The position numbers and the translations under genes are program-made. Below the pieces are notes generated by a model. The model saw nothing but the letters and a program-made list of their open reading frames with translations, did no database searches and was not told the origin of the DNA. DNA of 64,000 bases from NCBI GenBank assembly GCA_029834535.1, contig JAQMWT010000356.1:124001-188000 (forward strand), written 5' to 3'. This document shows positions 2,019 to 61,587 of this stretch, one piece after another. Position 1 is the stretch's first letter; every line of letters starts with the position of its first letter. The DNA is from Chrysophaeum taylorii. Its lineage: Eukaryota > Sar > Pelagophyceae > Pelagomonadales > Pelagomonadaceae.

Positions 2019-4747
2019 CACCATTAAACACTTGATCCCAACATTGGACTTCTTATAGTGCCGTAGGGGTACCCAAAATTTATTATCCATGGGTACGTAA
2101 ACCATTATCCCAAGAGCGACCCGGTCCGTAGAGTGGAGTCCCTGTTGTTGAAGCGAGCCGCGTAATCGGTTGGATCACAAACACCCGCAACCTTTGACAA
2201 AACACGCGCGGATCGTTTTGGAGCCTGTTTGTTGCATCGGGGTGGCTTGGCGACACGGCCGATTGATTTTCTTTGACAGTTTCGTCCACAGGGCCCACAA
2301 AACTTCGCGCACGCGCAGAATCAAAGATTCTTCGATTTCTTCACGTGGGGCCATCCGTTTTGCTGCGACACCAATCGCCGTCCAGAGCTGCGACTTTCTC
2401 GAATAGTCTTCCGGATTTCGCGAGTGTGTCTTTGAAGTCAACGTCGCCAGCAGTATCATTCTTAGCCGAGACCTCAAATCCAATCACAATTTGGGCGATC
2501 GTAAAACACGGCCGCGCTGAGGGGAGGCAGTTGGTTTTCTCCATGACGCTTTTAAGGACAATGAAGGTTGTGCTTCTGTGTTTGCACTTGTCGCCTGCCT
2601 GCCTGCCTGCCTGTCTGTCCATCCATCCTCCGAGGTGCAGATGAAACCCAATGCCCGTTCCGCCTTGAGCTTTTCTGAAACGCTTCGTATCGCCGCTCCG
2701 CATTCCGCAAGTGCGAGAACAATTTGATTGCATGTGGAGCGACAAAGCACGGCGGACACCGGATCGCGAAAAAAAAACCCTCGGCAAATTAAGCGGCCGC
2801 AGCTCGCTGGGCATGCTGTTACGTGGTATCGATATTTAGGGACGCTAACCGCGAGACGTTCCTCGAGCGGCTTTCTCGGACGGACCTCGTCGACGAAACT
2901 CTGCCTGGAGGAGAACGGCGACTTGCCTAGGATAAACTCGTCGTAGATGGCCGGATAGTGTCTTGTAATAATCTCAGTCATTCGTCTCCGGTGGTGGCTC
3001 ATTGATTAAGTCCTTCCTCCCGCGAGACCAGCAGCAGCTCGTTGCCGCCCGGCAAAATGCATCTCGTTTGAAACGCGACGCTCTTCTCTGAAACGCCGCC
3101 GTCGGTGGACGCGCGGTCAGTGGACGACACTTCGAAGAACGCCTTGACGATTGACTTCTAGCGGCAAGACTTGCCAGCCATCTCTTCGACGTCAGCATCC
3201 GAGACACGCGGCTGTTTCAAACTTAGTGACAGCGACGAAACCCTCATTCGCTTTTTCACCTTACCCTCTCGGACGATGCCTCTCGGCCTCCGACTCTTGC
3301 GCGACGTGTTAGGCGTCTTGGCGTCAGGTCCGCGCGCCCGACGCTGGCGGTGAGAGGGCCGGTTGTCCTGGAGGTCCTGCCGGCCCAGGACTTCGAGGCT
3401 TTGAGCGCCGACTCCTGCTTGCCGGCGCCCTTGGCGGATGCGCAGGGACGGTTCACCTCGTTGGCGACCTTGTGGATCGCCTCGCTGGCGTCCTCGGTGA
3501 AGAATCCGACCGTGTGCCAGCGTGTGGCGGCGGCGTACTTGACTTGATCATCGATGATGTGGAGCTTGAGCTGCACGTGGATGGTCGGGTACACCTTGCG
3601 CGCATCGGTTGACGCGGTGTCGCAGGCGGCACGGAGCCTGGAAGAGAGACGCGTAGGCGGGCTAGAGGAGATCGATGCGCTAGATGACGGCCTCGATCTC
3701 TTCCTTTGCCTTTGTCATCGTGTGACCATCCGTCTCCACGACCTCATCGGTGGGTAATCTAGTCCACGTGCCCTCGTCGATGTCATCCAGAAAGAGGCCT
3801 TCGTGGTTGCTCAGAAGGCCACGCTGTAGTACGCCCGACGCGCAGCCTGCGATGTATCAAATAAGGTCTTGAGCAAGGAAGTAAGAGATCGTTGGTATGC
3901 GCCGAATCCGCGGAATGCCTTGTTGAGACCCGGCACGTGGACTGTGGGGACTCGACTCGACTCGCGCGGATGTTTCGAGGCGCACCTTGATCGACTATAA
4001 ATCCTCGGGGTGTTTCGGGTCGTGGCAGGGCCTTGACGGGGTAGCCACGGGATCTAACGGGGTGAGGTAGGTGACCTAATATAGGGGCCTGCTGTTGTCG
4101 TCCGTGCCGAAGGGTTGGAGGTCAGGGTGCGTCCCCGAGCCCTTGACGCGGTAGATGCTGTGCAGCGCCGGTTGCTTCTTCCCGGGACTCCTCGGCCTGG
4201 TCGAAGTCCTCGGATTCGAGCTGGAGGACCTTGTACCAGGTGCACTTAGGGCGGCCAGCCCAAAAAGGTGCGACCGGGGAGGTGTCGCGCAGAAAGAAAG
4301 GAACGCCTTCGAGTGTGCCGTTGAGCTCGTCGTTGAGGTCCTCGAACGTATCCACCAGCATCGTTGGGTGTCGAGGTCCTGCGTCCAGAGCGTCGTCACT
4401 GCATGAGCGCGTGAATAAGAGCCCAGCGCCGGCGAAAAATTGCCCGATCACACGGGAAAAAAAAACGGCCCATACCATGGCCCAATAAAAAACGCATCGC
4501 GTCCATAATCTAAAAACAGACACCAAACACCGCCGCCCACGCGACACATACAAATTCGCGCGCCGCGGCGCCGCTTACCATGACAAGGGTATGTGTCAAG
4601 GAGGTCCCCCAGCAAGTTTGGTCACTCCTCCTCCACAAGCATCGACGGCCGGCGCCACGGCGTTCGGCATCTTTGAAATGTCGACTAGGGTTTCTGGCTG
4701 TCACTACGCCGGTGGAACCTGACAGGGTTAGATTGATTGCAGAGTTA
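2019..4747. other. Degenerate region with no intact gene
   Basis: Several frames of 60-170 codons occur but none is convincing. The minus strand carries the better-looking pieces (2484-3002, 3256-3594 and 4122-4553), which might be exons or decayed parts of one mobile element read right to left. A short CTGC run, (CTGC)4 followed by CTGT, lies at about 2596-2618. I see no RNA gene. Confidence 0.4.
3256..3594 (-). pseudogene. Possible transposon-protein relic
   Basis: The first 70 or so residues (IHVQLKLHIIDDQVKYAAAT, then WHTVGFFTEDASEAIHKVAN) have balanced, protein-like composition, unlike surrounding frames. The pattern of a His-rich strand followed by GFFxEDxxEAIHKVxN resembles conserved stretches in transposon-encoded proteins of algae and oomycetes, from general memory rather than a search. 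The second half becomes Arg/Ser/Thr-rich and probably frameshifted. No catalytic residues can be assigned. Confidence 0.25.
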
Positions 4748-5797
4748 TCCTAACTACTAATCGACAGATGTTTGTCTGTTTGTTTGTCTGTCTGTCCCTC
4801 GATTTAGGGTAAGGATCATGTAGGCGCGAGAGTAAGGATCAGGTAGGCGCGAGAGCCAGACAGTGATCCTCCAAGCCGTCTACGGCGACCTCGCAGACTA
4901 TTTCCACGACCCGCGGCGGCTCTTTCAGCGCGCCATTCTCACGCCCCGTCGAAACGATGTTGTCGATGCTGACAACGCGCGCATGACCGCGGCCTTTTTT
5001 TCCCGAAGACGAGGCGTCGGAGTTCTTTTCGGCCGACTAGGTTGGGTCGGAAGCCGACGCCTCGCTCTTTACAGTCGAGTTTTCAACTCCCTGACAACCA
5101 ACGGCATGCTGACTTTGATCGCGAGCTTAAAGTCTTCGCAACCTCGACCCGTCGCACGGCCACTGCAACGGTACCAGATACATCATCGATAGTGTCGTGT
5201 CACCGAGGCTCCTCCAACCTGTATCCCTCAAGCCCCACCGACGCCAAACGATCAACAAGAGCCAGAGGCAGACGCCCCGCAAGGTCGGCGTCCTCTTGCC
5301 CAAGCCCGTCTTCTGCCACGTCCAGCTCTACGTGGCTCTCTGTCGATCGGCAACCCCGAGGATATCCTCTTCTGAGTCGACGACTCCACCCTACCCCACA
5401 CGTGCTGCGCAATACCGATAAGCCCCCTCCCGGCGTCTACACGCGCACGGTAGGTGAACTTACTGGGACCAGGTGAACTTACTGGGGTTTGAGATTGGGA
5501 CTAGGTGAACTTAGTGACCAGGTGAACTTACTGAGACCAAGTGAACTTACAGGGGGTTTTAGAGTGAACGCAAAGGCGAGCGGCGTGTACGGATCAAAGC
5601 AGCTTAGATTGGCGGAGGTGAGAGCGACGAGCTCGAAGGAGAGTGGGGTGAGTGAATGTGAGCACGAGTGGGCTTACACCGAACTTACTGGGGTTAGAGA
5701 TTGGGACTAGGTGAACTTACTGGGACCACGTGAACTTACTGGGGTTAGAGATTGGGACTAGGTGAACTTACTGGCGAACTTACTGGCCTGCACTTGT
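4748..5797 (+). mobile_element. Helitron-type relic, copy 1
   Basis: The element begins at TCCTAACTACTAATCGACAG and ends at GGCCTGCACTTGT; the same ends recur in other copies. After a TGTC/TGTT-rich leader it carries decayed coding sequence of a PIF1-like helicase as found in Helitron Rep-helicase proteins. The 3' third is made of short interspersed direct repeats of AGGTGAACTTACTGGG and GGTTAGAGATTGGGACT. Helitron starts are classically TC, which fits the left end, but the right end lacks an obvious CTRR, so a Helentron/Helitron2-type end is more likely. No Rep (HUH) domain is present. Confidence 0.7.
4857..5430 (+). pseudogene. Broken PIF1-like Helitron helicase C-terminal part
   Basis: Three reading frames must be used in turn. 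At 4863-4985 the frame gives QAVYGDLADYFHDP and RAILTPRRNDVVDADNARM, matching the helicase stretch that usually reads ERAILTPRNxDVDxxN. Around 5090-5180 it gives NSLTTNGM and then LRNLDPSHGHCNGTRY, matching the LRNLDP...GLCNGTR block. At 5197-5421 it gives TINKSQRQT, PKPVFCHVQLYVALCR, matching the terminal TINKSQGQT...VFSHGQLYVALSR block of Helitron helicases. Walker motifs are upstream of what is preserved. The breaks show it cannot make a working helicase. The same arrangement recurs in the other four copies. Confidence 0.75.
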
Positions 5798-5805
5798 TAT
5801 AAATA

Positions 5806-6633
5806 ATGCTGTGGTTTTTGGCGTCGTTGGCCTTGTCGAAGCGACGCGCGCCGCAGTACGCCGAGATCAGCAGCACGAGGAACGAGGTGGTGAAGCTGGC
5901 GAAACGGCTGCATCGCAAGAAGCACCGCGACGCCGAGAAGCTGTGTTTGCTCGAGGGGAAAAGATTGATCGAGGACGTCGGCGAGGTCGCGACGTTAGTG
6001 ACGACGGCGAACGTAAATATCCAAGTCCGCGCGGAGCGCGTCGTGCGCGCCTCCGAAGGGGTTGTCGCGGCCTGCTGCGAGACGACGACGCCGCAGGGTG
6101 CCGTCGCGATCGCGCGAATGCCGAGAATAGAAGCGGTCGGAGCTCGTCTGGCTCTCGCGTTGGACCGCGTGAGCGACCCCGGAAACGTCGGAACGCTGAT
6201 AAGGACAGCCGCAGCCGTCGGGGCTGCGGTGGTGTGTGTTGGCGGCGCGGACCCGTTCTCGCCCAAGGCCCTCCGCGCGGCGATGGGCGGAACGTTCCGC
6301 GTTCCGGTCGTACGGGCCGACGCGTGGGACGCCGCGGCGGCCGCGTTGGCCGAGTGGAACTTAAAAACCATCGTGGCCGACCTCCACCCCGATTCGGTTC
6401 CGTATTATGCTGCTGGTGTAGACTGGGATCGGAGTGCGGTTGTTGTGGGGGGGGAAGTCGGCCTGAGCGCAGATCTCGAGGCCGTCCTCGACGCGCCCTC
6501 GAGGGTCTACATACCGATCGCCATCGAATCCCTCAACGCGGCCGTCGCGGGGTCCTTCCTCCTTTTGCACGCGCACCACCACCAGACCAGCTCAACAAGC
6601 TCCCGGTCGTCGTCGTCGTCGTCATCATCATAG
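5806..6633 (+). CDS. SpoU/TrmH-family RNA 2'-O-methyltransferase
   Basis: Predicted to transfer methyl from S-adenosylmethionine to ribose 2'-O in tRNA or rRNA. The 275-residue protein has an N-terminal substrate-binding region (about 20-110, with RNEVVKLAKRLHRKKHR) and then the knotted SPOUT catalytic domain. Motif 1 is DRVSDPGNVGTLIRTA (120-135), motif 2 VVVGGEVGLS (212-221) and motif 3 IPIAIESLNAAVAGSFLLL (236-254). Motif 2 has GGE where GNE is more usual, and motif 3 lacks the common Gly before ESLN; both may be tolerated. The first residues (MLWFLASLALS) are hydrophobic and could be an organelle-targeting leader, which would suit an organellar rRNA methylase. The C-terminus is a serine run from a TCG/TCA repeat. 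Its stop codon directly abuts that of TAF6. Confidence 0.88.
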   Translation: MLWFLASLALSKRRAPQYAEISSTRNEVVKLAKRLHRKKHRDAEKLCLLEGKRLIEDVGEVATLVTTANVNIQVRAERVVRASEGVVAACCETTTPQGAVAIARMPRIEAVGARLALALDRVSDPGNVGTLIRTAAAVGAAVVCVGGADPFSPKALRAAMGGTFRVPVVRADAWDAAAAALAEWNLKTIVADLHPDSVPYYAAGVDWDRSAVVVGGEVGLSADLEAVLDAPSRVYIPIAIESLNAAVAGSFLLLHAHHHQTSSTSSRSSSSSSSS

Positions 6634-23703: not shown

Positions 23704-23748
23704 TCCCTTACTACTAATCGACAGATGTTTGTTTGTCTGTTTCAAAAG
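23704..23748 (+). mobile_element. Isolated Helitron-type 5' end
   Basis: CTTACTACTAATCGACAGAT followed by a TGTT/TGTC run matches the left end of the Helitron relics at 4748, 35118 and 36048. Here it is followed not by helicase sequence but by the 23749-24697 repeat array. It may be the left end of relic copy 2, split from its helicase part. Confidence 0.5.
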
Positions 23749-24697
23749 GAAGGGTAGGAATGCCGGTCCTGGTGTGTGCGAGTGCCCGGGGCTATATATA
23801 CCCCTGTGCTTCCCCATCATAGTGAAACGTGAACATCTGGGGCGAGTCAAGCATGTATGTGTACGCGAGACGATGGGGACCCAGCAGACGACGACGCCAT
23901 CTGCTTAAGATGAACATCTGCGTCGGAGATGAACACCCGGTCCTGGTAAGTGAAAGCGCCCAGATGAGGGGGGTCTAGTGTTTGTGCTAGACGACGGGGC
24001 TCCAGCAGTTGGCGATGGCAACTGCTTCGAAGGCACTCACACACTCCTTGCGGCGCAGCGGTGGGGCGGATTCGAACGCGCGATCCACCTCGAGCGCTTT
24101 AAGGGCCCATAACCAAAAGGTAAGGTAGGAATGCCGGTCCTGGTGTGTGTGAGTGCCCGGGGCTATATATACCCCTGTGCTTCCCCATCATAGTGAAACG
24201 TGAACATCTGGGGCGAGTCAAGCATGTATGTGTATGCGAGACGATGGGGACCCAGCAGACGACGACGCCATCTGCTTAAGATGAACATCTGCGTCGGAGA
24301 TGAAAACCCGGTCCTGGTAAGTGAAAGCGCCCAGATGAACATCTGGGGCGAGTCAAGCATGTATGTGTCAAGCATGTATGTGTATGCGAGACGATGGGGA
24401 CCCAGCAGACGACGACGCCATCTGCTTAAGATGAACATCTGCGTCGGAGATGAAAACCCGGTCCTGGTAAGTGAAAGCGCCCAGATGAGGGGGGTCTAGT
24501 GTTTGTGCTAGACGACGGGGCTCCAGCAGATGGTACGCAACTGCTTCGTAGACACTCACACACTCCTTGCGACGCAGCGGTGGAGCGGATTCGAACGCGC
24601 GATCCACCTCGAGCGCTTTAAGGGCCCATAACCAAAAGGTAAGGTAGGAATGCCGGTCCTGGCGTGTGTGAGTGCCCGGGGCTATATATACCCCTGT
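23749..24697. repeat. TATA-bearing tandem repeat array
   Basis: Two long units (about 23749-24117 and 24118-24640) and the start of a third share the same sequence. Each begins GGAATGCCGGTCCTGG, then CCCGGGGCTATATATACCCC, an inverted repeat around a TATA box. A 135-bp subunit (CATCTGGGGCGAGTCAAGCA to GTAAGTGAAAGCGCCCAGAT) is present once in unit 1 and twice in unit 2. It is followed by two hairpins: GTCTAG...CTAGAC and, in unit 1, GCAGTTG...CAACTGC. Units end GGCCCATAACCAAAAGG. Short minus-strand frames exist but differ between units, so I doubt it is protein coding. Confidence 0.8.
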
Positions 24698-24887
24698 GTG
24701 TTTGTCTGTCTGTCTGTTTGCTTGTTTGTTTGTCTTTAAATGCCGACTGCGAAGAGGGGGGTGTGTGTGGGGAGCATGAAGGATGTGGGTGGGTTTGTGG
24801 GGTATGAGGGATGTGCCTGACGGGCGGAGATAAGTACGCGGGACCTAGTCGGGGTCATCGCCGAGGCGTGGGGCATGCGAAGAGAGG
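24698..24887. other. TGTC/TGTT tract and spacer
   Basis: A TGTC/TGTT simple repeat runs to about 24735, as in the leaders of the Helitron relics. It is followed by unique G-rich sequence. No gene seen. Confidence 0.6.
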
Positions 24888-25857
24888 AGTTGTTTGTCCC
24901 CCGATTTAGGGTAAGGATCAGGTAGGCCCGCGAGCTAGACAGTGATCCTCCAAGCCGTCTACGGCGACCTCGCAGACTATTTCCACGACCCGCGGCGGCT
25001 CTTTTAGCCAGCGCGCCATTCTCACGCCCCGTCGAAAAAATGTTGTCGATGCTGACAACGCGCGCATGACCGCGGCCTTTTTTTCCCGGAGACGAGGCGT
25101 CGGAGTTCTTTTCGGCCGACTAGGTTGGGTCGGAAGACGACGCCTCGCTCTTTACAGTCGAGTTTTCGACTCCCTGACAACCAACGGCATGCTGACTTTG
25201 ATCGCGAGCTTAAAGTCTTCGCAACCTCGACCCGTCGCACGGCCACTGCAACGGTACCAGATACATGATCGATCGTGTCGTGTCACCGAGGCTCCTCAAA
25301 CCTGTATCCCTTAAGGCCCGCCGACGCCAAACGATCAACAAGAACCAGGGCCAGACGCCCCGCGAGGTCGGCGTCCTCTTGCCCACAAGCCCGTCTTCTG
25401 CCACGTCCAGCTCTACGTGGCTCTCTGTCGATCGGCAACCCCGAGGATATCCTCTTCTGGGTCGACGACTCCACCCTACCCCACACGTGCTGCGCAATAT
25501 CGATAAGCCCCCTCCCGGCGTCTACACGCGCACTATAGGTGAATTTACTGAGGATAGAGATTGGGATTAGGTGAATATAGTGACCAGGTGAACTTACTGG
25601 GACCAGGTGAACTTACTGGGGGTTTTAGAGTAAACTCAAAGGTTAGCGGGGTGTGCGGATCAAAGCACCTTGGATTGGCGGAGGCGAGAGCGACGAGCTC
25701 GAAGGAGTGGATGTGAGCACGAGTGGGTTTACGCCGAACTTACTGGGGTTAGAGATTTGGACTAGGTGAACTTACTGACCAGGTGAACTTACTGGGACTA
25801 GGTGAACTTATTGGGGTTAGAGATTGGGACTAGGTGAACTTACTGGCCTGCACTTGT
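24888..25857 (+). mobile_element. Helitron-type relic, copy 2
   Basis: Shares with copy 1 the sequence from CCCGATTTAGGGTAAGGATC to the right end GGCCTGCACTTGT. The helicase remnants are in the same order (around 24942-25080, 25190-25260 and 25275-25540, including TINKNQGQTPREVGVLLP and QLYVALCR-like sequence) with frame breaks. The 3' part again consists of AGGTGAACTTACTGGG repeats. The left-end signature is absent here and may be the one at 23704. Confidence 0.7.
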
Positions 25858-28703: not shown

Positions 28704-28957
28704 CTCCCGGGCGGGCCGGTTGGCAGCCGGAACGTTCGCAGTGGGACGGGTTATGGCCGGGGGGCGAAGACGGAAGGTTATCGACGAGTTGGTTGTCAGC
28801 ACATCGCGGTCTCCTCGTCGCATGGCGACAAGCTTGATGGTCACTCTCCGCCGACCGACCTTTCGGCGCTCCTCGTCTACAGGCCCGTGATTCCGGACTG
28901 GCTCCTGTCGGTCCGGCCGGGCTCCCATGCTCGGGAGAGGTCTGAAGTTAGTTAGTT
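28704..28957. repeat. Dispersed 254-bp repeat, copy A
   Basis: Nearly identical to 48700-48953, starting CTCCCGGGCGGGCCGG and ending GGAGAGGTCTGAAGTTAGTT. Differences are a handful of single bases and small indels. Inside is a short frame on the minus strand (VDEERRKVGRRRVTIKLVAM) shared by both copies, too short to call a gene. The ends CTCCCGGGC and GCTCGGGAG are near-inverted repeats, so a small non-autonomous DNA element is possible. Confidence 0.8.
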
Positions 28958-35117: not shown

Positions 35118-35138
35118 TCCTAACTACTAATCGACAGA

Positions 35139-35177
<39 letters not shown>

Positions 35178-36044
35178 TTGTTTGTCCCTCGATTTAGGGT
35201 AAGGATCAGGTAGGCGCGAGAGTAAGGATCAGGTAGGCGCGCGAGCCACAGACAGTGATCCTCCAAGCCGTCTACGGCGACCTCGCAGACTATTTCCACG
35301 ACCCGCGGCGGCTCTTTCAGCGCGCCATTCTCACGCCCCGTCGAAACGATGTTGTCGATGCTGACAACGCGCGTATGACCGCGGCCTTTTTTTCCCGGAG
35401 ACGAGGCGTCGGAGTTCTTTTCGGCTGACTAGGCTGGGTCGGAAGACGACGCCTCGCTCTCAAGAGTCGAGTTTTGAACTCCCTGACAACCAACGGCATG
35501 CTGACTTTGATCGCGAGCTTAAAGTCTTCGCAACCTCGACCCGTCGCACGGCCACTGCAACGGTACCAGATACATGATCGATCGTGTCGTTGTCACCGAG
35601 GCTCCTCCAACCTGTATCCCGTAAGGCCCGCCGACGCCAAACGATCACCAAGAGCCAGGGCCAGACGCCCCGCGAGGTCGGCGTCCTCTTGGCGAAGCCC
35701 GTCTTCTGCCACGTCCAGCTCTACGTGGCTCTCTGTCGATCGGCAACCCCGAGGATATCCTCTTCTGAGTCGACGACTCCACCCTACCCCACACGTGCTG
35801 CGCAATACCGATAAGCCCCCTCCCGGCGTCTACACGCGCACTGTAGGTGAACTTACTGGGACCAGGTGAACTTACTGGGGTTGGAGCAGGTGATCTTACT
35901 GGGTTTTTTAGAGTAAAGGGTTTTTAGAGCAAACTCAAAGGTTATCGGCGTGTGCGGATCGAAGCGCCTTAGATTGGCGGAGGCGAGAGCGACGAGCTCA
36001 AAGGAGTTGGTGTGAGCTAGGTGAACTTACTGGCCTGCACTTGT
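35118..36044 (+). mobile_element. Helitron-type relic, copy 3
   Basis: Has both ends: TCCTAACTACTAATCGACAG on the left and GGCCTGCACTTGT on the right. The helicase relic occupies 35258-35814, with NSLTTNGM, LRNLDP-type and TKSQGQTPREVGVLLAKPVF blocks in different frames, as in copy 1. It starts nine bases after the stop of the preceding gene, so it may supply that gene's 3' end. Confidence 0.72.
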
Positions 36045-36047
36045 TTA

Positions 36048-37084
36048 TCCTAACTACTAATCGACAGATGTTTGTCTGTCTGTTTGTTTGTCCCTCGATT
36101 TAGGGTAAGGATCAGGTAGGCCCGAGAGTAAGGATCAGGTAGGCGCGAGAGCCAGACAGTGATCCTCCAAGCCGTCTACGGCGACCTCGCAGACTATTTC
36201 CACGACCCGCGGCGGCTCTTTCAGCGCGCCATTCTCACGCCCCGTCGAAACGATGTTGTCGATGCTGACAACGCGCGCATGACCGCGGCCTTTTTTTCCC
36301 GGAGACGAGGCGTCGGAGTTCTTTTCGGCTGACTAGGCTGGGTCGGAAGACGACGCCTCGCTCTTTACAGTAGAGTTTTCAACTCCCTGACAACCAACGG
36401 CATGCTGACTTTGATCGCGAGCTTAAAGTCTTCGCAACCTCGACCCGTCGCACGGCCACTGCAACGGTACCAGATACATGATCGATCGTGTCGTTGTCAC
36501 CGAGGCTCCTCCACCGAGGCTCCTCCAACCTGTATCCCTTAAGGCCCGCCTACGCCAAGCGATCAACAAGAGCCAGGGCCAGACGCCCCGCGAGGTCGGC
36601 GTCCTCTTGGCGAAGCCCGTCTTCTGCCACGTCTAGCTCTACGTGGCTCTCTGTCTATCGGCGACCCCGAGGATATCCTCTTCTTGGTCGACGACTCCAC
36701 CCTACTCCACCCACACGTGCTGCGCAATACCGATAAGCCCCCTCCCAGCGTCTACACGCGCACTATAGGTTAACTTACTGGGACCAGGTGAACTTACTGG
36801 GGTTTGAGATTGGGACTAGGTGAACTGAGTGACCAGGTGAAACTGGGACCAGGTGAACATACTGGGGTTTTTAGAGTAAAGTTTTTAGAGTAAACTCAAA
36901 GGTTGGCGGCGCGTGCGGATCAAAGCAGCTTAGATTGGCGGAGGCGAGAGCGACGAGCTCAAAGGAGTTGGTGTGAGCTAGGTGAACTTACTGACCAGGT
37001 GGACTTATACGAAAAATAATGGGACCACGTGAACTTACTGGGGTTAGAGATTGGGAGTAGGCGAACTTACTGGCCTGCACTTGT
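36048..37084 (+). mobile_element. Helitron-type relic, copy 4
   Basis: Begins three bases after the end of copy 3 with TCCTAACTACTAATCGACAG and ends GGCCTGCACTTGT. A short internal duplication ACCGAGGCTCCTCC is present near 36499-36525. Helicase relic blocks are in the same order as in the other copies. Confidence 0.72.
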
Positions 37085-38115
37085 GTTTGTCGTTTGTCTG
37101 TTTGTTTGTTTGTCTGTCTGTCTGTTTGTCCCTCGATTTAGGGTAAGGATCAGGTAGGCGCGAGAGTAAGGATCAGGTAGGCGCGAGAGCCAGACAGTGA
37201 TCCTCCAAGCCGTCTACAGCGACCTCGCAGACTATTTCCACGACCCGCGGCGGCTCTTTTAGCCAGCGCGCCATTCTCACGCCCCGTCGAAACGATGTTG
37301 TCGATGCTGACAACGCGCGCATGACCGCGGCCTTTTTCCCGGAGACGAGGCGTCGGAGTTCTTTTCGGCTGACTAGGCTGGGTCGGAAGACGACGCCTCG
37401 CTCTTTACAGTAGAGTTTTCAACTCCCTGACAACCAACGGCATGCTGACTTTGATCGCGAGCTTAATGTCTTCGCAACCTCGACCCGTCGCACGGCCACT
37501 GCAACGGTACCAGATACATGATCGATCGTGTCGTTGTCACCGAGGCTACTCCAACCTGTATCGCTTAAGGCCCGCCTACGCCAAACGATCAACAAGAGCC
37601 AGGGCCAGACGCCCCGCGAGGTCGGCGTCCTCTTTCCCAAGCCCGTCTTCTGCCACGTCCAGCTCTACGTGGCTCTCTGTCGATCGGCAACCCCGAGGAG
37701 ATATACTCATCTGGGTCGACGACTCCACCCTACCCCACACGTGCTGCGCAATACCGATAAGCCCCCTCCCGGCGTCTACACGCGCACTGTAGGTTAACTT
37801 ACTGGGACCAGGTGAACTTACTGGGGTTTGAGATTGGGACTAGGTGAGCTGAGTGACCAGGTGAACTTACTGGGACCAGGTGAACATACTGGGGTTTTTA
37901 GAGTAAAGGGTTTTTAGAGTAAACTCAAAGGTTGGCGGCGCGTGCGGATCAAAGCAGCTTAGATTGGCGGAGGCGAGAGCGACGAGCTCAAAGGAGTTGG
38001 TGTGAGCTAGGTGAACTTACTGACCAGGTGAACTTATATGAAACTTACTGGGACCAGACCTGAACTTACTAGGGTTAGAGATTGGGACTAGGTGAACTTA
38101 CTGGCCTGCACTTGT
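37085..38115 (+). mobile_element. Helitron-type relic, copy 5
   Basis: Joined directly to copy 4. The left-end signature is missing; it starts inside the TGTT/TGTC leader. The right end GGCCTGCACTTGT is intact. It keeps TINKSQGQTPREVGVLFPKP and QLYVALCR-like sequence (37528-37797), again out of frame with the upstream helicase part. Confidence 0.72.
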
Positions 38116-38225
38116 TATTTATTTAACATGGTGCACTACGTAACAATTAATCCGGCGGCGGTCATCTATCCTAAAAAAATGGGGCCGTTCTTGTTCAATG
38201 CTTACCCTGCGTCCCTATCATCGTC

Positions 38226-39680
38226 ATGATGTGGCCAGTAATTGTCGCACGGCACTACTACTACTACTTATGGTGGTGGTCGATGATGGTGTGCGCGACC
38301 GACGGAACGTCGCTGTTCCGGCAGGTGTTGCGCGTGACGGGCGATGCGAACGCCTCGACCGTGCTGCTGAACTCGAACTTTGAGTTCATCCGCGACAACG
38401 AGGACGTCGTGGAGATCGCGAGCCGCGCGAGCGCGAAAAAAGCGGCCTCGCGTGTCCGCAAGGACATGAAAAAAAAGAAGCGATGGGTGTTTAGGATCCG
38501 ATTCGACGGCGCTTCTATCGATGAATTCCGCGTCGGGTTGAACCACGCGCCGGAAGTCGACGGATTCTGCGAATTTTTGAGCAGCGCGGTCCCCGCTTTG
38601 AGGGGAGCCGAGTACGTTATCCTGACCGTCGGCACGCACGGGTTGGGGTCGCCCTTCCACCCGCAGATCCGCAAGAAGCTCAAGGACGAATGCGGGATCG
38701 GGCTTCCGCAGCTCGTGCGAACTTTGGAAGAAAAGTCTCTCGTCCGTTGGTTCGTGTCGCAACACTGGCCGTCGCTCGCGGACGGCGACCGCATGGAGCC
38801 CGGCTGGAACCCCGCGACCATGCCGTGGCCTCTCGCGACGACAACAACAACAACAAAAGGGGCCTGCCACGGCCACCCGAAGCTCGCGGTGGTACCGATG
38901 GGCTTGGCGGGAAACGTCCGAGCGAGAACGCTCGCTTTCAGCCAGGTCTTCGACGCGATGAGGCGGTCTGTGGCGGAGGGCAAAACCAGAACGACGGTCG
39001 AGACGCCCTTCAACACGACCCTCAACCTCACGTTTCCCCGCAACGGCGACGACGTCCGACGCCCGCGGCTCGTGTCGTCGGCGATGCAACTTCACAAGGG
39101 CAGGAAAGAGAAGTTAGAGGCGACGGGGTTGCGAAACGAGCTCACCACCGGGACGCGGCCGACGAATTATCATAATTTTGTCGACTACTTCAAGATCCTC
39201 GCCACATCCAAGTTCGTCCTCTCCCCGATTGGATCGGGCCTCGACTGCTTCCGCCATTGGGAAGCCCTCGCGCTCGGCGCTATTCCGATCGTCGACTACT
39301 CCCCCGTCGCCGCAAAGCTCTTCGCGGGACTTCCCGTGCTCCTCATGTCCTCGTGGGACGTGCCTCTCGCCAACCTCGACCAGTTCTACGAGGATCACGT
39401 CGTCTACGCGACGACGCAGTTCTTCGATTTCGAGAGGCTCGCGACCAGGTTCTGGGGCAACCTTCTACAAACCGCCTTTCTGCAGCAGCACCACCCAAGC
39501 CCGGCGGATCTCCTCCGGTGTCGTGTCGCCCCCTTCGTCGCCGTCTGCCGCGACATGTGGGCTCCCCCCATCCCCCGAGCAGTCAACAGAACCGCCCGCG
39601 TCTTCCAGCTTCGAGCCAACCAATCCTCGTGCCGCGAACCCGAGATTGCGCTCACGCTAGCGGACCTCCTCCAAGTCTAA
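38226..39680 (+). CDS. Exostosin-like (GT47-type) glycosyltransferase
   Basis: The 484-residue protein has an N-terminal hydrophobic segment (YYYYLWWWSMMVCA) fitting a type II Golgi anchor. Near residues 327-360 it has SKFVLSPIGSGLDCFRHWEA then LALGAIPIVDYSP, the exostosin-family signature FxxSPxGxGxDCxRxWEAxxxGxIPIV. Upstream regions (VILTVGTHGLGSPFHPQ, LAVVPMGLAGN) are compatible with the N-terminal Rossmann half. Cysteine pairs and N-glycosylation sites suit a lumenal enzyme. Donor and acceptor are not predictable. Its TAA stop (39678-39680) overlaps the TAG of the opposite-strand gene ending at 39677. Confidence 0.75.
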   Translation: MMWPVIVARHYYYYLWWWSMMVCATDGTSLFRQVLRVTGDANASTVLLNSNFEFIRDNEDVVEIASRASAKKAASRVRKDMKKKKRWVFRIRFDGASIDEFRVGLNHAPEVDGFCEFLSSAVPALRGAEYVILTVGTHGLGSPFHPQIRKKLKDECGIGLPQLVRTLEEKSLVRWFVSQHWPSLADGDRMEPGWNPATMPWPLATTTTTTKGACHGHPKLAVVPMGLAGNVRARTLAFSQVFDAMRRSVAEGKTRTTVETPFNTTLNLTFPRNGDDVRRPRLVSSAMQLHKGRKEKLEATGLRNELTTGTRPTNYHNFVDYFKILATSKFVLSPIGSGLDCFRHWEALALGAIPIVDYSPVAAKLFAGLPVLLMSSWDVPLANLDQFYEDHVVYATTQFFDFERLATRFWGNLLQTAFLQQHHPSPADLLRCRVAPFVAVCRDMWAPPIPRAVNRTARVFQLRANQSSCREPEIALTLADLLQV

Positions 39681-48699: not shown

Positions 48700-48953
48700 C
48701 TCCCGGGCGGGCCGGTTGGCAGCCGGAACGTTCGCAGTGGGACGGGGTATGGCCGGGGGGCGAAGACGGAAGGTTATCGACGAGTTGGTTGTCAGTCACA
48801 TCGCGGTCTCCTCGTCGCATGGCGACAAGCTTGATGGTCACTCTCCGCCGACCGACCTTTCGGCGCTCCTCGTCTACAGGCCCGTGATTCCGGACTGGCT
48901 CCTGTCGGTCCGGCCTGGCTCCCATGCTCGGGAGAGGTCTGAAGTTAGTTAGT
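48700..48953. repeat. Dispersed 254-bp repeat, copy B
   Basis: Matches copy A (28704-28957) almost base for base, in the same orientation. It is followed by (GTTA)n. Sequences outside the repeat differ between the two places, so the unit has moved or been copied. Confidence 0.8.
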
Positions 48954-50775
48954 TAGTTAGTTGTTTGTGACGTCTCTCCAAGAAAAGACGCAGTGACTTG
49001 GGCGTCATCATCAGGCTGGTTCTGGCGGTGGTTCCTGGGTCGGTACTCTGTGAGGCGACGCGGTGGACACACACAAAACACGCGCGCCCGCTCCAGAAGA
49101 GGGACCTGCGGACAGACAGACAGACAAACAACCCAGGCGTTTTGTCGTCGAGATTTTTCCCCAAGAGGATGACGACGACGTTCGGCGAAGCAATACGAGA
49201 AACCCATCACGCAGTCGACCCGATCTTATAAGCTCTCTTTCTGGAGTGACGACGCTTCGGCGGTTTGTGGAGGTTCAACAGAACATGAAGACGAGAAAGG
49301 TGATTTGGGCGAAGATGAAGACGGGCGACCAACAACGTTCACATACCGTCGGAAACACGTTCGTTCCGGATGGATGGCGCTCGGGAGATGGATCATCGCC
49401 GCCACGCTCGAAATGAATGAAAAGGTCGCCCGACGCTCGCCCTGGACTGTTTCATTCGTGCGGAGGACCGACGTCGGGCCGCAGAGAGACAGGAAGTCGA
49501 CCAGTCCTGCAAAGTCATAATCGCATGTACAAGATGGTGAAGCAGCAGCAGAGTAGTCGAGTAATAACTCTGTCGCGCCGTCGTCAAAGTGAGATGTGTG
49601 CACGTAGTTAAGCGACTCGGAAGAATCCAAGGCGCCGCCGACATCAGCGACGCGCGTGGTCGGGGACGACATTGACACTCCCAGGCAGCACCAAAGCGCG
49701 CTGTCTGTCGGGTGGCTAATAATTGCGCCATGCGGAACTTTAAGTTTGTTATTCCGGCAGAGCTATCCCCAAGTTTGCCGTTGATGGGCTTTCGTGCGAT
49801 GCCATATTTTTTTTTTACTGGGTACCCCTCCGCTTTGCAATTTCCCCTTTTTTCCGCAAAATGGTGGTGGTGGATACAAGAGCCTGGGACTTGCCATGAA
49901 TACCATTGCCGCTGGAACCCTCTCTCCTTCACCACCGAGTCGTATTGCTTCAACCGCCCTTGTCGTTTTGGAGCTTGATCCCCCCCTGCTGCTTCTCTAA
50001 GCGTTTCTGCATATCCCTGTCTTCGTTGGCCTCCTTGCTCTCTGCTTTGTCGTCCTCAGCGGTCCTCTGTTGTCTTATCTTCTTTTTTTCTCTTCCTCCC
50101 TCCGAGCGATCATCGATTCTGGCTCTCCGAGCCTGAGTTGTTAACCACAAAAAAATCTCATTTTTGCTCCTGCTTTTTCCTTGTTTCCCTCTGCGATGCT
50201 CGCTCGCTCGCTCGCTCGCTCACAGGAAGTAAGTTGCCAGCCTTCGTCCAGCAGCAACAAGAGACTGTGGGACCTTCCTGTGAGCGAGCGAGCGAGCGAG
50301 CGACAATAATGGTGGCTTGCGCATCTCTGGACAAAAATAAAAGTGGACCATCAATGAATTATGAAGCGCGCGCCGGGTGTATTGACAAGCTACCGGCGGC
50401 GCCAGGAGTTTTTCTTCGCGATGTCGGTCGCGAGGAATATATATCCTCTAGTTTGCCGTCGTCGTCGTCGTCGGGATTCAGGTTTTCCAATGGCCGTTTC
50501 GTACAACAATCTGGAGCCAAAGACCGGTCGCTGCCAACATTGGGTGTCCGCGCTAATGACGGACGGCCCTTATTCTCTGCGTGTAGTTCTATCTATATCT
50601 AATAAGCCGCGGGCGTCGTTTTGGTGTGCTGATGGATGGTTGAGACATCCGCAGTCGCTCCACATATTATTCCTGGAGTTTTCCCCGAAGGAATATATCC
50701 CTGGTGTGATCTCGAGAAACCTCGTCGTCGTCGTCGGTTGAGGCTAAGCCTGAAGTTGCAGCCAGGTCAGCGATC
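48954..50775. other. Gene-poor region
   Basis: Short frames only, the longest being a minus-strand stretch at 49226-49678 (YVHTSHFDDGATELLLDYSA) that has no recognisable domain and no neighbours to support it. Includes (GACA)n at about 49112-49128 and the long inverted repeat listed at 50200-50303. The right end is the promoter of the lumenal protein gene. Confidence 0.45.
50200..50303. repeat. Perfect 30-bp inverted repeat with 44-bp spacer
   Basis: Arm 1 (50200-50229) is a TCGC/GCTC run ending in CACAGGAAG; arm 2 (50274-50303) is its exact reverse complement, beginning CTTCCTGTG and continuing as GAGC units. Twenty or so bases of each arm are tetranucleotide repeat, but the nine-base unique parts also match. 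It would form a long cruciform or RNA hairpin. Confidence 0.85.
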
Positions 50776-56909: not shown

Positions 56910-59060
56910 TTAGAGGGACTTGATGTAGTCGGCGAGGGGTTTGGCGGACTTGTGCCATTTTTTGGAGAAGTTTTTCCACATGTAGAGGGTGACGCGGCCG
57001 TGCTTATTTCGAAGTTTGTCGAGGAATTTTGCCAGGGCGTCGTCGCCGAGGTCGTCAAAATCGAGATCGTCGAAGTAGTTTTCGACGGCGATCGCGAAGT
57101 CCGCGTCGGCATCGATCTCCGTCGCCTCGTCGCAGCCGAGCTCGCGTTTGAGGGCGTCGAAGACCGCCTCGGCGTTGTTGTCCTCGAGCCTCGGATTATT
57201 ATTGGGTGCCGAATCATCCTCCGAGGAGACGTTGCTGGACGACTGCTGAACCCACTCGACGACGACGCGGGGAGCGTCGCCGTTGCAGACGAGGCAGGCC
57301 TTGACGAAAGCAGCAGCCTGGACGTGGAGGACGTCGATTTTCTGGTCCCGGACGCTCTCGTGGAGCGGTCGTTCGACGAGAGATTCGAGGTTTTCGTCCG
57401 ATGCGATGAGCTCGAGGGGCGCGGGGTCGCGGCGCCAGGATCCGGCCGCTTTTCGCCGCAGACCGTCGACGACGTGGCGAGTGTCGGAGAAGTCGACGAC
57501 TTTGCTAAAGATGTCCGTGACGCCGATGGTCGAGAAGGCTGCGATCACCGCGTTCAAAAGGTCCATCGCCGCGCGTCTTTTTGTTTTTTTGATCTTCCCG
57601 AGGTCGGCGTCGACGCGCCTCGCGTAGTCGAGGGCCGAGGCCCGGTTCTGCGAATTTGAGGAGACCGCGAGGACGCACTTGGTGTACTCGGCGAACGAGG
57701 TCCGGAGCTTGAGGCTCGCGACGCGCTGCACGAGGCCGACGTACCTCTCGTCCCGCGACGTCTCGGCCCGGTCCACGAGCCAGTCGAGGCGGAGCGCTTT
57801 GGATCTGTCGACGACGCCGTCGTTCTCCGCTTTCTCGATCACCAGCTTCAACGCCATGGCGACACGTTTTTCCTTGTCGAACTGGAAGCCGCGCGGCGCC
57901 TTGGAGAGGACGTCGCAGATCATCTTGCGCTTGTCCTCGAGGGCGATGTCTCCGTGCTTGTACGCGGCGCTCGCTGCGGAATAAAAAAGCGTGAGCTCGT
58001 TCACGTCGCACACGGCCTCGCCGAGGCGATCGAGGGCCTTTTCGCTCGACCACGACTCGCGGTCGGCCTCGACGAACACCCGAAAAAAAGCGGGCATCGC
58101 GTCGGCGAGACCCCAGAGTTTGACCGTGCTGTCGGAAGCTCCCGTCGCCAGGACGTCGCCGGCCGGCGAAAACGCGACCGCCGCGACGACGTCCGCGTGG
58201 CCTTCGAACGTATGGACCAACGACCGCGACCTCACGTCCCAGAGCCGCGCCATCTCGTCCCCCGATCCCGTCGCGAGCAAGTCCCCCGACGGCGAAAACG
58301 CGACCGCCACCAAATCTGCCGCCAAAAACGCCTTGTGTCCCTCGAACGTGTGAACCAGACTTCGAGATCGCACGTCCCACAGACTCGCCGTGTTGTCGAC
58401 GTAGCCCGTCGCGAGCAGGTCTCCCGACGGCGAAAACGCGACCGCCACGATGTCGGCGACCAGATATCTCGAAAACACCTTGAAGTTGTGCACCAAGGTC
58501 TTCGACTTGGTGTCCCACAGCTTGGCCGTGTTATCGCTCGAGCCGGTAGCCAACAGATCCCCCGCGGGCGAGAAAGCCGCCGACGCGACCCCCGTCTCGT
58601 GCCCCTCCAAGGCGTGCACGAGCTTCCGGACGCGCACGTCCCAGAACTTGAGGCTCTTGTCGCCGGCCCCCGTCGCGAGGACGTCGTCGGCCGGCGAGAA
58701 CGCGACCGTCGCGACACCACCCTTGAACCCCCGAAACGTGTGCGCGAGGCTTCGACTCTGCACGTCCCAGAGCTTGGCCGAGTTGTCGTCGGAGGCCGTC
58801 GCCAGAAACTCGCCAGAGGGCGAGAACGCGACCGACCGCACGGCCGCCGTGTGTCCCTCGAAGCTTTGGACTAATTTCCTCGACGGCAGGTCCCAGAGCT
58901 TGGCTGTGCGGTCCTTCGACCCCGTCGCCAGGAGGTTCCGGGAAAATGTCACCGCCAATATCTTGCCCGAACTGCAAAACGTGTGCTGGAGGGCGTACTT
59001 CCCCTTGGCGGCCTGCTGCTGCTGCTGCTGCGTACCCGCCACCTGGGCAAACAGGAACAT
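56910..59060 (-). CDS. WD40 protein with helical middle and novel C-terminal module (copy 1)
   Basis: First ATG 59060, 716 residues. After a Gln run, seven WD40 blades fill about 22-325 (repeats of VAFSPSGDLLATGSxDNTAKLWD), forming a single propeller. Residues 330-600 are a helical region with FFRVFVEADRESWSSEKALD, LTLFYSAASAAYKHGDIALE and VVDFSDTRHVVDGLRRKAA. The last 80 (VFDALKRELGCDEATEIDAD, FAIAVENYFDDLDFDDLGDD and LYMWKNFSKKWHKSAKPLAD) form a compact acidic/aromatic module. I know no family for the last two. The next gene upstream (59443-61587) is a full-length paralogue in the same orientation, so this is a tandem duplication. Confidence 0.8.
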   Translation of the reverse strand: MFLFAQVAGTQQQQQQAAKGKYALQHTFCSSGKILAVTFSRNLLATGSKDRTAKLWDLPSRKLVQSFEGHTAAVRSVAFSPSGEFLATASDDNSAKLWDVQSRSLAHTFRGFKGGVATVAFSPADDVLATGAGDKSLKFWDVRVRKLVHALEGHETGVASAAFSPAGDLLATGSSDNTAKLWDTKSKTLVHNFKVFSRYLVADIVAVAFSPSGDLLATGYVDNTASLWDVRSRSLVHTFEGHKAFLAADLVAVAFSPSGDLLATGSGDEMARLWDVRSRSLVHTFEGHADVVAAVAFSPAGDVLATGASDSTVKLWGLADAMPAFFRVFVEADRESWSSEKALDRLGEAVCDVNELTLFYSAASAAYKHGDIALEDKRKMICDVLSKAPRGFQFDKEKRVAMALKLVIEKAENDGVVDRSKALRLDWLVDRAETSRDERYVGLVQRVASLKLRTSFAEYTKCVLAVSSNSQNRASALDYARRVDADLGKIKKTKRRAAMDLLNAVIAAFSTIGVTDIFSKVVDFSDTRHVVDGLRRKAAGSWRRDPAPLELIASDENLESLVERPLHESVRDQKIDVLHVQAAAFVKACLVCNGDAPRVVVEWVQQSSSNVSSEDDSAPNNNPRLEDNNAEAVFDALKRELGCDEATEIDADADFAIAVENYFDDLDFDDLGDDALAKFLDKLRNKHGRVTLYMWKNFSKKWHKSAKPLADYIKSL

Positions 59061-59133
59061 CCCCAACACCACGACGACGAACGACCACCTCCCTCCCTCC
59101 CTCCTGAGATTACGATTAGTTTCTCTGAGCGCT

Positions 59134-59141
59134 TGACGTCA
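59134..59141. promoter_or_regulatory. CRE-type bZIP palindrome TGACGTCA
   Basis: It lies 74 bp upstream of the start codon of WD40 copy 1, a plausible promoter position. Confidence 0.4.
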
Positions 59142-59351
59142 TCTTGAAGCCTCGCCCTGGGAATTATTTGGGATTCGGATATGATTCAGCTCCTGCTTTG
59201 TCAACCTCGACTCCTCAGATTCGAACAACTAAGGGGGGTTCTTGCAAGATACGTTCTTGTTGCCTCCGCGATCACTCGCGGAACCAAAATACGCGACCAC
59301 CCTTCAACATACTCTTTTGGTAGACCTTTGGTTACAGACAGACATCCCGCG

Positions 59352-59354
<3 letters not shown>

Positions 59355-59414
<60 letters not shown>
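59355..59414. repeat. (CTG/CAG)n trinucleotide repeat, about 20 units
   Basis: An uninterrupted CTG run between the two WD40 paralogues, 28 bp beyond the stop codon of copy 2, so probably in its 3' untranslated region (read as CAG on the transcribed strand). Confidence 0.95.
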
Positions 59415-59415
<1 letters not shown>

Positions 59416-59442
59416 GAGCGTTAAGATCATGGGTGGTCAGAG

Positions 59443-61587
59443 TCAGAGGGAGGCGAGGTAATCCGGGAGTGGCTTGTTGGACTTGTGCCACTTTTTGCAG
59501 AGGTTCTTCCACATGTAGAGGCTGACGTGGCCGTTCTTGTTCTTGAGCTTTGCCAAGAACCTGTCGCGGACAGCAACTCCGAGGTCTTCGAAATCGAGGT
59601 CGTCGAAGTAATTTTCGACGACGATCGCAAAGTCGACGTCGGCATCAATCTCGGTCGCATCGTCGTCGCAGCCGAGGTCGCGCTTGAGCGCGGCGAAGAC
59701 GGCTTCCGACGACGACGAGGAATCCGGCGGCTCTGTCTCGAGGTCTTCGTCGGAGTTGTTGCAGACGAGGCAGGTCTTGACCAAAGCCGCCGCTTGGACG
59801 AGCTGGAGGTCCATCTTGTGTTGTCTGACGGCGTCGTGAAGCGGCGCGCCGACGACGCAGGCCTCGAAGTTGTCGTCGGAAACGAGGAGATCCAGCGCGG
59901 TCGCGTCGGCGCTCGAGGCGGCCGATTGTCGCATGGCGTCGACGACGTGCGACGTGTCCGAGAAGTCGACGACGCGGTTGAATACATCGCCGCCGCCGCC
60001 GTCGGGCATGTCCATCGCAGCAAAGGCCCCGACGATGGCCGAGAGGATGTTGACGGCGGCGTTGCCTTTCGCTCGCGCGCGGCGCTCGAAGCGAACGAGT
60101 TCCCTATCAACTCGACGCGCGTAGTCGAGGATAGCCGTCGTGGCCGGATAGTCCCAGCCGATGTCGAGGGCGTAGTCGGCGATGCGGTCGGAGCGCATGC
60201 TCGAGAGTCGCGCGACCAATCCGACGAAGCGATCGTCGCTCGGCGCGTCTGCTCGCTCGAGAAGCCGGTCCAACCGAAGGGCCTCCGAGCGGTCGACGAG
60301 CCCGTCCTCCTGGGCCTTCTCGATGATGAGTTTGAGGGCGGTCGCGACGCGCGAATCGCGGTCGAAGCGGAACTCGATCGGAGCCTTGGCGAGGACCTTC
60401 CGGACGAGGTCGCGTTTTTCGTCCAGCGATACGTCGCCGTGCCTGTGCGCCGCGCTCGCCGCCGAATACAACAACGTGAGCTCGTTGGTGTCGCCGACGG
60501 TGGCGGCGAGGCGTTCGAGGGCCTTGGTACTCCCCCAGGACTCGCGCTCGGCCTGGGCGAAGACCTGGAAAAACTCGGACGGCGTCGACGTTCGCCCGAG
60601 GTCCCAGAGCTTGACGGTCGCGTCCGCCGATCCCGTCGCCAGCGCGTCGCCCGCGGGCGAGAAGGCGACCGAAAACACGATGGAGGAGTGGTCGTCCAGG
60701 GTGTGGAGCAGCTTGCGCGCTCCCACGTCCCACAGCTTGGCCGTCTTGTCCCTAGAGCCCGTCGCGAGAAGCTCGCCCGAGGGCGAGAAAGCGACCGACC
60801 GCACCCAGTCGCCGTGACCCCTAAAGTTGTGGACGAGACTCAACTCCTGCAAATCCCACAGCTTGGCCATCTTGTCGGCGGAGCCCGTCGCGAGGAGGTC
60901 GCCCGCGGGCGAGAAGGCGACGGCAAACACCTGATTCGAATGACCTCGGAAGACGTACACGAGATTCATCGATCGCACGTCCCAGATTTTCGCCGTCTTG
61001 TCGCCGCAGCCCGTCGCCAGAAAATCACCCCCGGCCGAGAAGTGCGCCGAGTGCACCACGTCCGACGGACATTCTTCCGGCGGCGCCGCCGCGTCGGAGC
61101 TCGTTCGATTCACGAAAGACGCGACGAGTTTGCGAGATCTCGCGTCCCACATCTTGACCGTGTTGTCGTACGAGCCCGTCGTCAAGCGGTAGCCCGAGGG
61201 CGCGAACGCGACAGACTGGACCCAACTCGAATGTCCCTCGAAGATGTGTACGAGCCGCCGCGATCTCAGGTCCCACAGCATGGCCGTGTTGTCCCCCGAC
61301 CCCGTCGCCAACAACCGACCCCGAGGCGAGAACGCCACCGAGAACACCGTCGCCGAATGTCCTTCGAACGTGTGCACGTGCGTCCGCGACCGCACCTCCC
61401 ACACCTCGGCCGCGTTGTTGTTGCACCCCATCGCCATCAGATTGCCTGCCGTCGAAAACGCGACACAAAACACGGCGCCCGAATGTCCTGACAGCGTCTG
61501 CTGGAGACCGTACTTGCTCTCTTGCTGCTGCCGTCGATCCACCACCATGCTCGGCCACCGCCCTTTGTTCTTGTCGATGCACAACAT
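59443..61587 (-). CDS. WD40 protein with helical middle and novel C-terminal module (copy 2)
   Basis: ATG 61587, 714 residues, paralogue of the neighbour at 56910-59060. Seven WD40 blades occupy about 28-335 (LSGHSGAVFCVAFSTAGNL to TGSADATVKLWDLG); blade 4 has an insert with TSSDAAAPPEECPSDVV. The helical middle keeps FFQVFAQAERESWGSTKALE, LTLLYSAASAAHRHGDVSLD and VVDFSDTSHVVDAMRQSA. The C-terminus keeps VFAALKRDLGCDDDATEIDA, FAIVVENYFDDLDFEDLGVA and LYMWKNLCKKWHKSNKPLPD. The conservation of the two unrecognised parts alongside the propeller argues that they are functional domains. It lacks a signal peptide and is probably cytosolic or nuclear. Confidence 0.8.
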   Translation of the reverse strand: MLCIDKNKGRWPSMVVDRRQQQESKYGLQQTLSGHSGAVFCVAFSTAGNLMAMGCNNNAAEVWEVRSRTHVHTFEGHSATVFSVAFSPRGRLLATGSGDNTAMLWDLRSRRLVHIFEGHSSWVQSVAFAPSGYRLTTGSYDNTVKMWDARSRKLVASFVNRTSSDAAAPPEECPSDVVHSAHFSAGGDFLATGCGDKTAKIWDVRSMNLVYVFRGHSNQVFAVAFSPAGDLLATGSADKMAKLWDLQELSLVHNFRGHGDWVRSVAFSPSGELLATGSRDKTAKLWDVGARKLLHTLDDHSSIVFSVAFSPAGDALATGSADATVKLWDLGRTSTPSEFFQVFAQAERESWGSTKALERLAATVGDTNELTLLYSAASAAHRHGDVSLDEKRDLVRKVLAKAPIEFRFDRDSRVATALKLIIEKAQEDGLVDRSEALRLDRLLERADAPSDDRFVGLVARLSSMRSDRIADYALDIGWDYPATTAILDYARRVDRELVRFERRARAKGNAAVNILSAIVGAFAAMDMPDGGGGDVFNRVVDFSDTSHVVDAMRQSAASSADATALDLLVSDDNFEACVVGAPLHDAVRQHKMDLQLVQAAALVKTCLVCNNSDEDLETEPPDSSSSSEAVFAALKRDLGCDDDATEIDADVDFAIVVENYFDDLDFEDLGVAVRDRFLAKLKNKNGHVSLYMWKNLCKKWHKSNKPLPDYLASL

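Follow-up and report, generated by a model that had tools for sequence, protein, structure and literature searches.

Head-to-tail arrays of a non-autonomous Helitron with a non-canonical 3' end in Chrysophaeum taylorii probably form mostly by insertion at resident left ends

The window analyzed here (the whole stretch of 64,000 nt, C356:124001-188000; G+C content 57.8%) contains five copies of a short Helitron-type element, three of which form a head-to-tail array (Table 1). All five copies share one right end and a broken PIF1-type helicase, and their bodies represent a single repeat family; uninterrupted short copies are 0.93-1.05 kb in length. The right end, GGCCTGCACTTGT, showed five exact matches in the window (at 5785, 25845, 36032, 37072 and 38103), as compared to 0.05 matches expected from shuffled sequences, and the left end, TCCTAACTACTAATCGACAG, was found exactly at 4748, 35118 and 36048 and with two mismatches at 23705 (0 expected in the window). 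The first-pass annotation of this DNA had described five copies with a common right end and, in most cases, a common left end; this description holds, except that the second copy does not start at 24888, as its left end lies at 23705. Inside this left end (approx. 23740-24700) are about 960 bp of other DNA carrying a 150-bp tandem repeat, which may represent another mobile element or captured DNA. Joints of 0-3 bp had also been described for the array, and these copies do nearly abut: the first joint is TTTA (3 or 4 bp), and at the second (37083/37084) CACTTG is directly followed by TGTTTGTC, the third copy being truncated at its left end.

Table 1. Features of the short Helitron copies in the window (window coordinates)
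Feature	Position	Strand	Remarks
Solitary short Helitron copy 1 (TCCTAAC...CACTTG)	4748..5796	+	Flanks GAGTTA^TTATAAAT
Copy 2	23705..25856	+	Variant left end at 23705, other DNA, then dead helicase core (24908-25535) and right end
Array copy 1	35118..36043	+	Left and right ends
Core of array copy 1, dead helicase stretch	35182..35842	+	Homologous to putative parent positions ~5868-6571
Helicase piece LRNLDPSHGHCNGTR...	35523..35621	+	Pif1_2B_dom match, E = 1.1e-5, 25.4 bits (cut-off 23.9)
3' tail with near-repeats of GTGAACTTACTGG	35845..36043	+	4 to 9 near-repeats per element among the five window copies
TTTA joint between array copies 1 and 2	36044..36047	+	3 bp or, with the T that follows CTTG taken as flank, 4 bp
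Array copy 2	36048..37083	+	
Array copy 3	37084..38114	+	Left end shortened by its first 21 bp; starts with TGTTTGTC

The window also contains other features. An open reading frame directly to the right of the array (38175-39680) matches RXYLT1_C (E = 5.2e-8; 33 bits, cut-off 27), which suggests a putative glycosyltransferase. Two repeat blocks with a period of mostly 126 bp are located at 58111-61473; we presume these repeats to be WD40-like. A segment of about 250 bp is duplicated with 99% identity at 28704-28957 and 48700-48954, i.e., 20 kb apart. No Rfam families or tRNAs were reported within the 64-kb window.

Six helicase pieces were searched against domain profiles. One of them (Table 1) scored above the Pif1_2B_dom cut-off, a second one (36427-36633; E = 4.1e-5) scored just below it, and the other four of the six showed no convincing match. 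The piece above the cut-off agrees with the PIF1/Helitron helicase identity that had initially been read from the translated fragments.

Searches of the genome (70.8 Mb in 697 contigs) yielded 2,605 exact right ends and 2,943 left ends (with up to 2 mismatches), and reversed-pattern controls yielded 0. Assuming approx. 1 kb per right end, as in the window, the family would total roughly 2.6 Mb. The first array copy was found at seven other loci with 100% identity (rounded) over 927-930 of 930 bases; some copying has therefore been recent.

Genome-wide profile searches showed 40 matches to Helitron_like_N and 45 to PIF1, several of which are pieces of one element, and twenty loci were examined. 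At one of these (L029), an element of 6,781 bp (6.78 kb) extends from TCCTAACTACTAATCGACAG to GGCCTGCACTTG and directly abuts short copies on both sides (0-bp joints). Its first 20 bases are identical to those of window copies W1, W3 and W4, its last 20 bases (ACTTACTGGCCTGCACTTGT, flanking T included) are identical as well, and its body matches at approx. 80-87%. A long Rep and helicase element with the same termini, which the first-pass annotation had proposed to look for, is present in this genome. Seven further loci contain helicase regions 96-99% like that of the L029 element, and the L029-type right terminus is also found in L025, L026, L027, L030 and L032. The long elements at L026 (C6) and L027 (C268) have the same right flank and therefore probably represent a duplicated locus, not two insertions.

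At L027, one frame spans Rep and most of the helicase, with Rep, PIF1 and Pif1 2B domains (Helitron_like_N, E = 3.5e-59; PIF1, E = 3.4e-63), and matches the Helraiser Helitron transposase by sequence (PDB 7LCC; E = 9.4e-185, residues 42 to 1086). Two stretches, KRGLPHAHILLILD and KYIHKYVYKGHD, align between this frame and Helraiser, and we take them to hold the catalytic HUH motif and the tyrosine pair. With these presumed catalytic labels, the long element shows the RepHel arrangement, in which a PIF1-type helicase is fused to a Rep carrying the HUH motif and the tyrosine pair. Not all long copies are intact; the L029 element has a frame change within the helicase and the L028 copy has several small indels in the region compared. 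A second RepHel lineage (L033, L034, L035, L040 and others) shows approx. 66% DNA identity to the L029 lineage and ends in CTTACTAG at the two joints read (L033 and L035), i.e., in CTAG, which has the canonical CTRR form. In L035, Rep and helicase are encoded in a frame of 1,862 aa, and a strong hairpin is predicted upstream of the CTAG end.

When aligned to the L029 element, the first array copy matches positions 1-52, 85-122, 5868-6247 and 6345-6571, plus the terminus; the short element has kept both termini and, between them, a part of the helicase C-terminus in which the frame is broken. The cores of the short copies were compared in an alignment of 47 near-complete cores drawn from 80 BLAST rows, from which L001 and L009-L024 were omitted as they overlap other loci. 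Nine helicase indels relative to L029, six of them frameshifting (not multiples of three), are present in all 47 short cores and absent from all 8 long copies aligned. A further 4-bp insertion is present in 46 and a 4-bp deletion near the core start in 45 of the 47 cores, the T-run at 6007 varies among cores, and the remaining internal indels occur in 1 to 9 of 47. The frame breaks therefore precede the spread of the short element; they are common to the copies and not independent, and the initial proposal that the helicase had died before the copies spread is borne out by this alignment. The short cores have a median identity of 96.8% to each other vs. 84.7% to the best long copy, and a direct parent copy was not found, every long copy aligned being approx. 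14-17% away from the short cores. Judged by these alignments, the short element is best explained as an internal-deletion derivative of a 6.78 kb RepHel Helitron with relatives still in the genome. It shares its termini with a RepHel element of the same genome and has lost its coding capacity, as is the case for non-autonomous Helitrons; the presence of RepHel elements with the same termini agrees with the earlier suggestion that it was mobilized by another source, which is most likely.

The 5' end of the element begins with TC (TCCTAAC), as placed with a one-base ambiguity by means of nested empty sites. The 3' end of the short copies and of long family A is CTTG, not CTRR. A 3' hairpin (16-20 nt palindrome approx. 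11 bp from the end) was not detected, as 5 of 5 ends (three short, two long) fold no better than shuffled sequences with DNA parameters; the end of the first array copy shows an imperfect stem with RNA parameters. Overall, the family belongs to the Helitrons, but its 3' end, CTTG without a hairpin, is non-canonical. Among the loci examined, the 3' flanking base is T in 28 of 30 flanks (nested insertions aside), and the 28 flanks read on the 5' side show A (14), G (10) or T (4) as the flanking base; nested stubs account for five of the As. Further into the 3' flank, positions 3-9 are rich in T and positions 10-19 mostly rich in A. Genome-wide, 298 right ends have a TTTAAA within 25 bases; among 100 listed of these 298, exactly six bases separate CTTG from TTTAAA in 73 cases, 63 of which fall into four types (the remaining ten being others). 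These 63 cases look like one dispersed repeat entered from both sides. The left boundary itself departs from this TTTAAA preference.

A dispersed short repeat, TTTAAATGTCGACTGCTAAGAGGGGGG(TG)nGGGGAGCATGAAGGATGT or variants of it, is found in the window at approx. 24735-24800, at loci such as L026 and L048 and, in the long element, close to the left end. Helitron copies lie six bases from the TTTAAA of this repeat on either side, with their 3' ends facing the repeat. At listed joints, the spacers CTT, CTTCTT and CTTAT precede TCCTAAC, which suggests a variant left end, TCTTCCTAAC, or slippage at the 5' terminus.

Insertions of one copy into another were found as a nested class of joints, in which 21 bp of a resident left end (...CGACAGA) are followed by a complete left end, and in which, after the CTTG of the inserted copy, the resident continues with TGTTTGTC. 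At all five loci read, both halves of the nested self-insertion are present and the resident left end is restored exactly; the insertions are precise, at A^T, and without target duplication (or with an equivalent one-base shift). Empty sites had been called for initially, and these five loci serve as nested ones. Genome-wide, we found 28 joints of the stub type, and the other half occurs 65 times. A partner joint is located 0.9-1.3 kb downstream for 14 of the 28 stubs and within 5 kb for 16 of 28 (17 pairings), and no stub among the 28 has a partner on the wrong side within 5 kb.

Exact 0-bp joints of a right end to a left end (head-to-tail) occur 357 times in the genome, and head-to-tail joints with 1-30 bp between the ends gave 100 matches, some of which overlap the 0-bp class. 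The pattern used found no exact 0-bp head-to-head joints, and a head-to-head pattern with 0-10 bp matched in one place only (C351; two joints, each with 4 bp in between). Insertions at the stub site all follow the orientation of the resident (28 vs. 0 in the opposite orientation). Among the loci examined, end pairs within 60 bp comprise 21 head-to-tail pairs, 8 doubled left ends and 2 tail-to-tail pairs (5 and 57 bp). In L006, a resident left end was entered in the opposite orientation, at a TTTTAAAA stretch, so that three inverted neighbor pairs (L006 and the two tail-to-tail pairs) are found among these loci; matches to the first array copy also have opposite-strand neighbors on C432 and C309. 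As far as searched, the exact boundary (357:0) and the stub site (28:0) thus show a fixed orientation, but the inverted pairs show that this does not hold everywhere.

We also compared the cores of neighboring copies, using 15 adjacent pairs (the L045 pair, 4537 to 6437, was excluded due to a partial copy in between). Median core identity is 97.5% for adjacent pairs as compared to 96.8% for 1,037 pairs from different loci (P = 0.012, with pairs that are not independent). None of the 15 adjacent pairs are mutual best matches; the first array copy, for example, is 97.3% like its neighbor and has a core identical to copies elsewhere, and copies with identical cores at different loci adjoin partners that are 96.6-97.8% alike. 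The slightly higher likeness of adjacent copies makes some local duplication or concatemers likely, but the absence of mutual best matches indicates that the sampled arrays were assembled mainly from separate insertions.

One explanation for head-to-tail arrays would be rolling-circle concatemers, in which replication of a single template runs through the right end repeatedly and the resulting multimer integrates in one piece. The 0-bp joints equal the expected circle junction (CTTG/TCCT), adjacent copies are slightly more alike than others, and arrays on C377 and C444 repeat one spacer at a constant period; on C377, three joints have an identical TAAA spacer and are 1,032 bp apart. Arrays with repeated identical spacers (C377, C444 and C29) may be local duplications or concatemers. 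Neighbors are not each other's closest relatives in the pairs described above, however, copies with identical cores stand beside different partners, and a 6.78 kb RepHel element is found between two short copies at 0 bp. Concatemers thus appear unlikely to explain the arrays in general, and as their sole source they are disfavored by neighbor identity. The earlier statement that the tandem joins fit rolling-circle copying is weakened by the neighbor comparison (0 of 15) and by self-insertion with exact restoration of the target (5 of 5 loci read).

Less probable still is that ordinary insertions were multiplied into arrays by unequal crossing-over or satellite-like expansion. The repeated identical spacers in C377, C444 and C29 would be consistent with such expansion, but flanking sequence would be expected between the units, whereas 357 joints have none, and units within one array differ in length and sequence. 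The tail repeats had also been said to recall Helentron-associated elements (HINE/DINE-like), a reading to which the T-rich 3' flank could be added but which we reject as very improbable, since the RepHel frames reach within approx. 180 bp of the right end of the L029 element, the scanned RepHel frames of L027, L029 and L035 showed no endonuclease, OTU or RPA match, no 12-15 bp subterminal inverted repeats (no inverted word >5 bp) were found between the terminal 60 bases in W1, W3 and the L029 element, and insertion is not at TT (5' T in 4 of 28 flanks, nested sites at A^T).

Overall, we favor serial insertion at the resident left boundary over simple rolling-circle concatemers. The short element is probably a non-autonomous RepHel derivative mobilized in trans, with arrays formed mostly by same-orientation insertion at resident left ends. 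The RepHel protein would recognize the common ends and move short copies in trans; in most sampled arrays, the incoming copy would have inserted in the same orientation as a resident copy, either precisely at the left end of the resident or slightly within it. Rep may nick the left boundary of the resident on one strand to start transposition, and this nick could provide an oriented landing site, which would account for the exactness of the joints, the orientation at the boundary, the mixed long and short neighbors and the unlike siblings. More tentatively, this would amount to self-targeting, in which the nick serves as acceptor and each insertion recreates the site, so that head-to-tail arrays of unrelated siblings could grow without a rolling-circle multimer; we regard this as possible but somewhat doubtful. 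Growth at the left boundary predicts that the 5' copy is the younger one, but the 5' and 3' neighbors were younger in 8 vs. 8 of 16 neighbor pairs (by a crude measure of age). The likeness of adjacent copies, the C377 spacers and the inverted pairs (L006, the two tail-to-tail pairs, C351, C432 and C309) also count against the favored explanation, as do the missing direct parent copy, the poor agreement of the left boundary with the TTTAAA preference and the presence of a 5' flanking A in only 14 of 28 flanks.

Arrays of Helitrons in head-to-tail order have previously been taken to support rolling-circle transposition (PMC5876387). The 357 self-joints, the 28 stub joints and the presence of both long and short partners allow the question of concatemers vs. 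serial insertion to be asked directly in this genome, and the small sample read points to serial insertion. Literature on the present family was not found in searches that mostly did not extend to subscription journals; as far as these searches go, new aspects are the joint count, the evidence of self-insertion from both halves of the joints, and a non-canonical end with a preference for TTTAAA. For Helraiser, cleavage of the plus strand at the left end has been reported, together with circles and double-stranded intermediates; the same paper mentions that plant and bat genomes contain tandem arrays and head-to-tail junctions (PMC5876387). Myotis, Drosophila, rice and maize are reported to carry tandem Helitrons; for a tandem case in Metarhizium, insertion into a 5' end and rolling-circle replication are offered as alternatives (PMC5148889).

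As compared to the bat Helitron Helraiser (PDB 7LCC for the sequence; PMC5876387), the present family is similar in Rep and PIF1-type helicase, aligned HUH and tyrosine stretches, a 5' TC and insertion without target duplication, but differs by its CTTG 3' end, the lack of a predicted hairpin, a 5' flank that is often G or T and a preference for TTTAAA six bases downstream. DINE-1 and HINE elements, which derive from Helentrons (PMC4067079), are likewise high-copy non-autonomous rolling-circle elements with tandem repeats; unlike these, the present family shows no subterminal inverted repeats, no endonuclease match in the parent and no TT insertion (A^T in nested copies). The FoHeli elements of Fusarium oxysporum also have atypical termini, and the corresponding paper discusses self-insertion at the 5' end (PMC5148889). 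FoHeli have asymmetric terminal inverted repeats, none of which were found here, and resemble Helitron2; conversely, hundreds of joints can be counted in the present genome.
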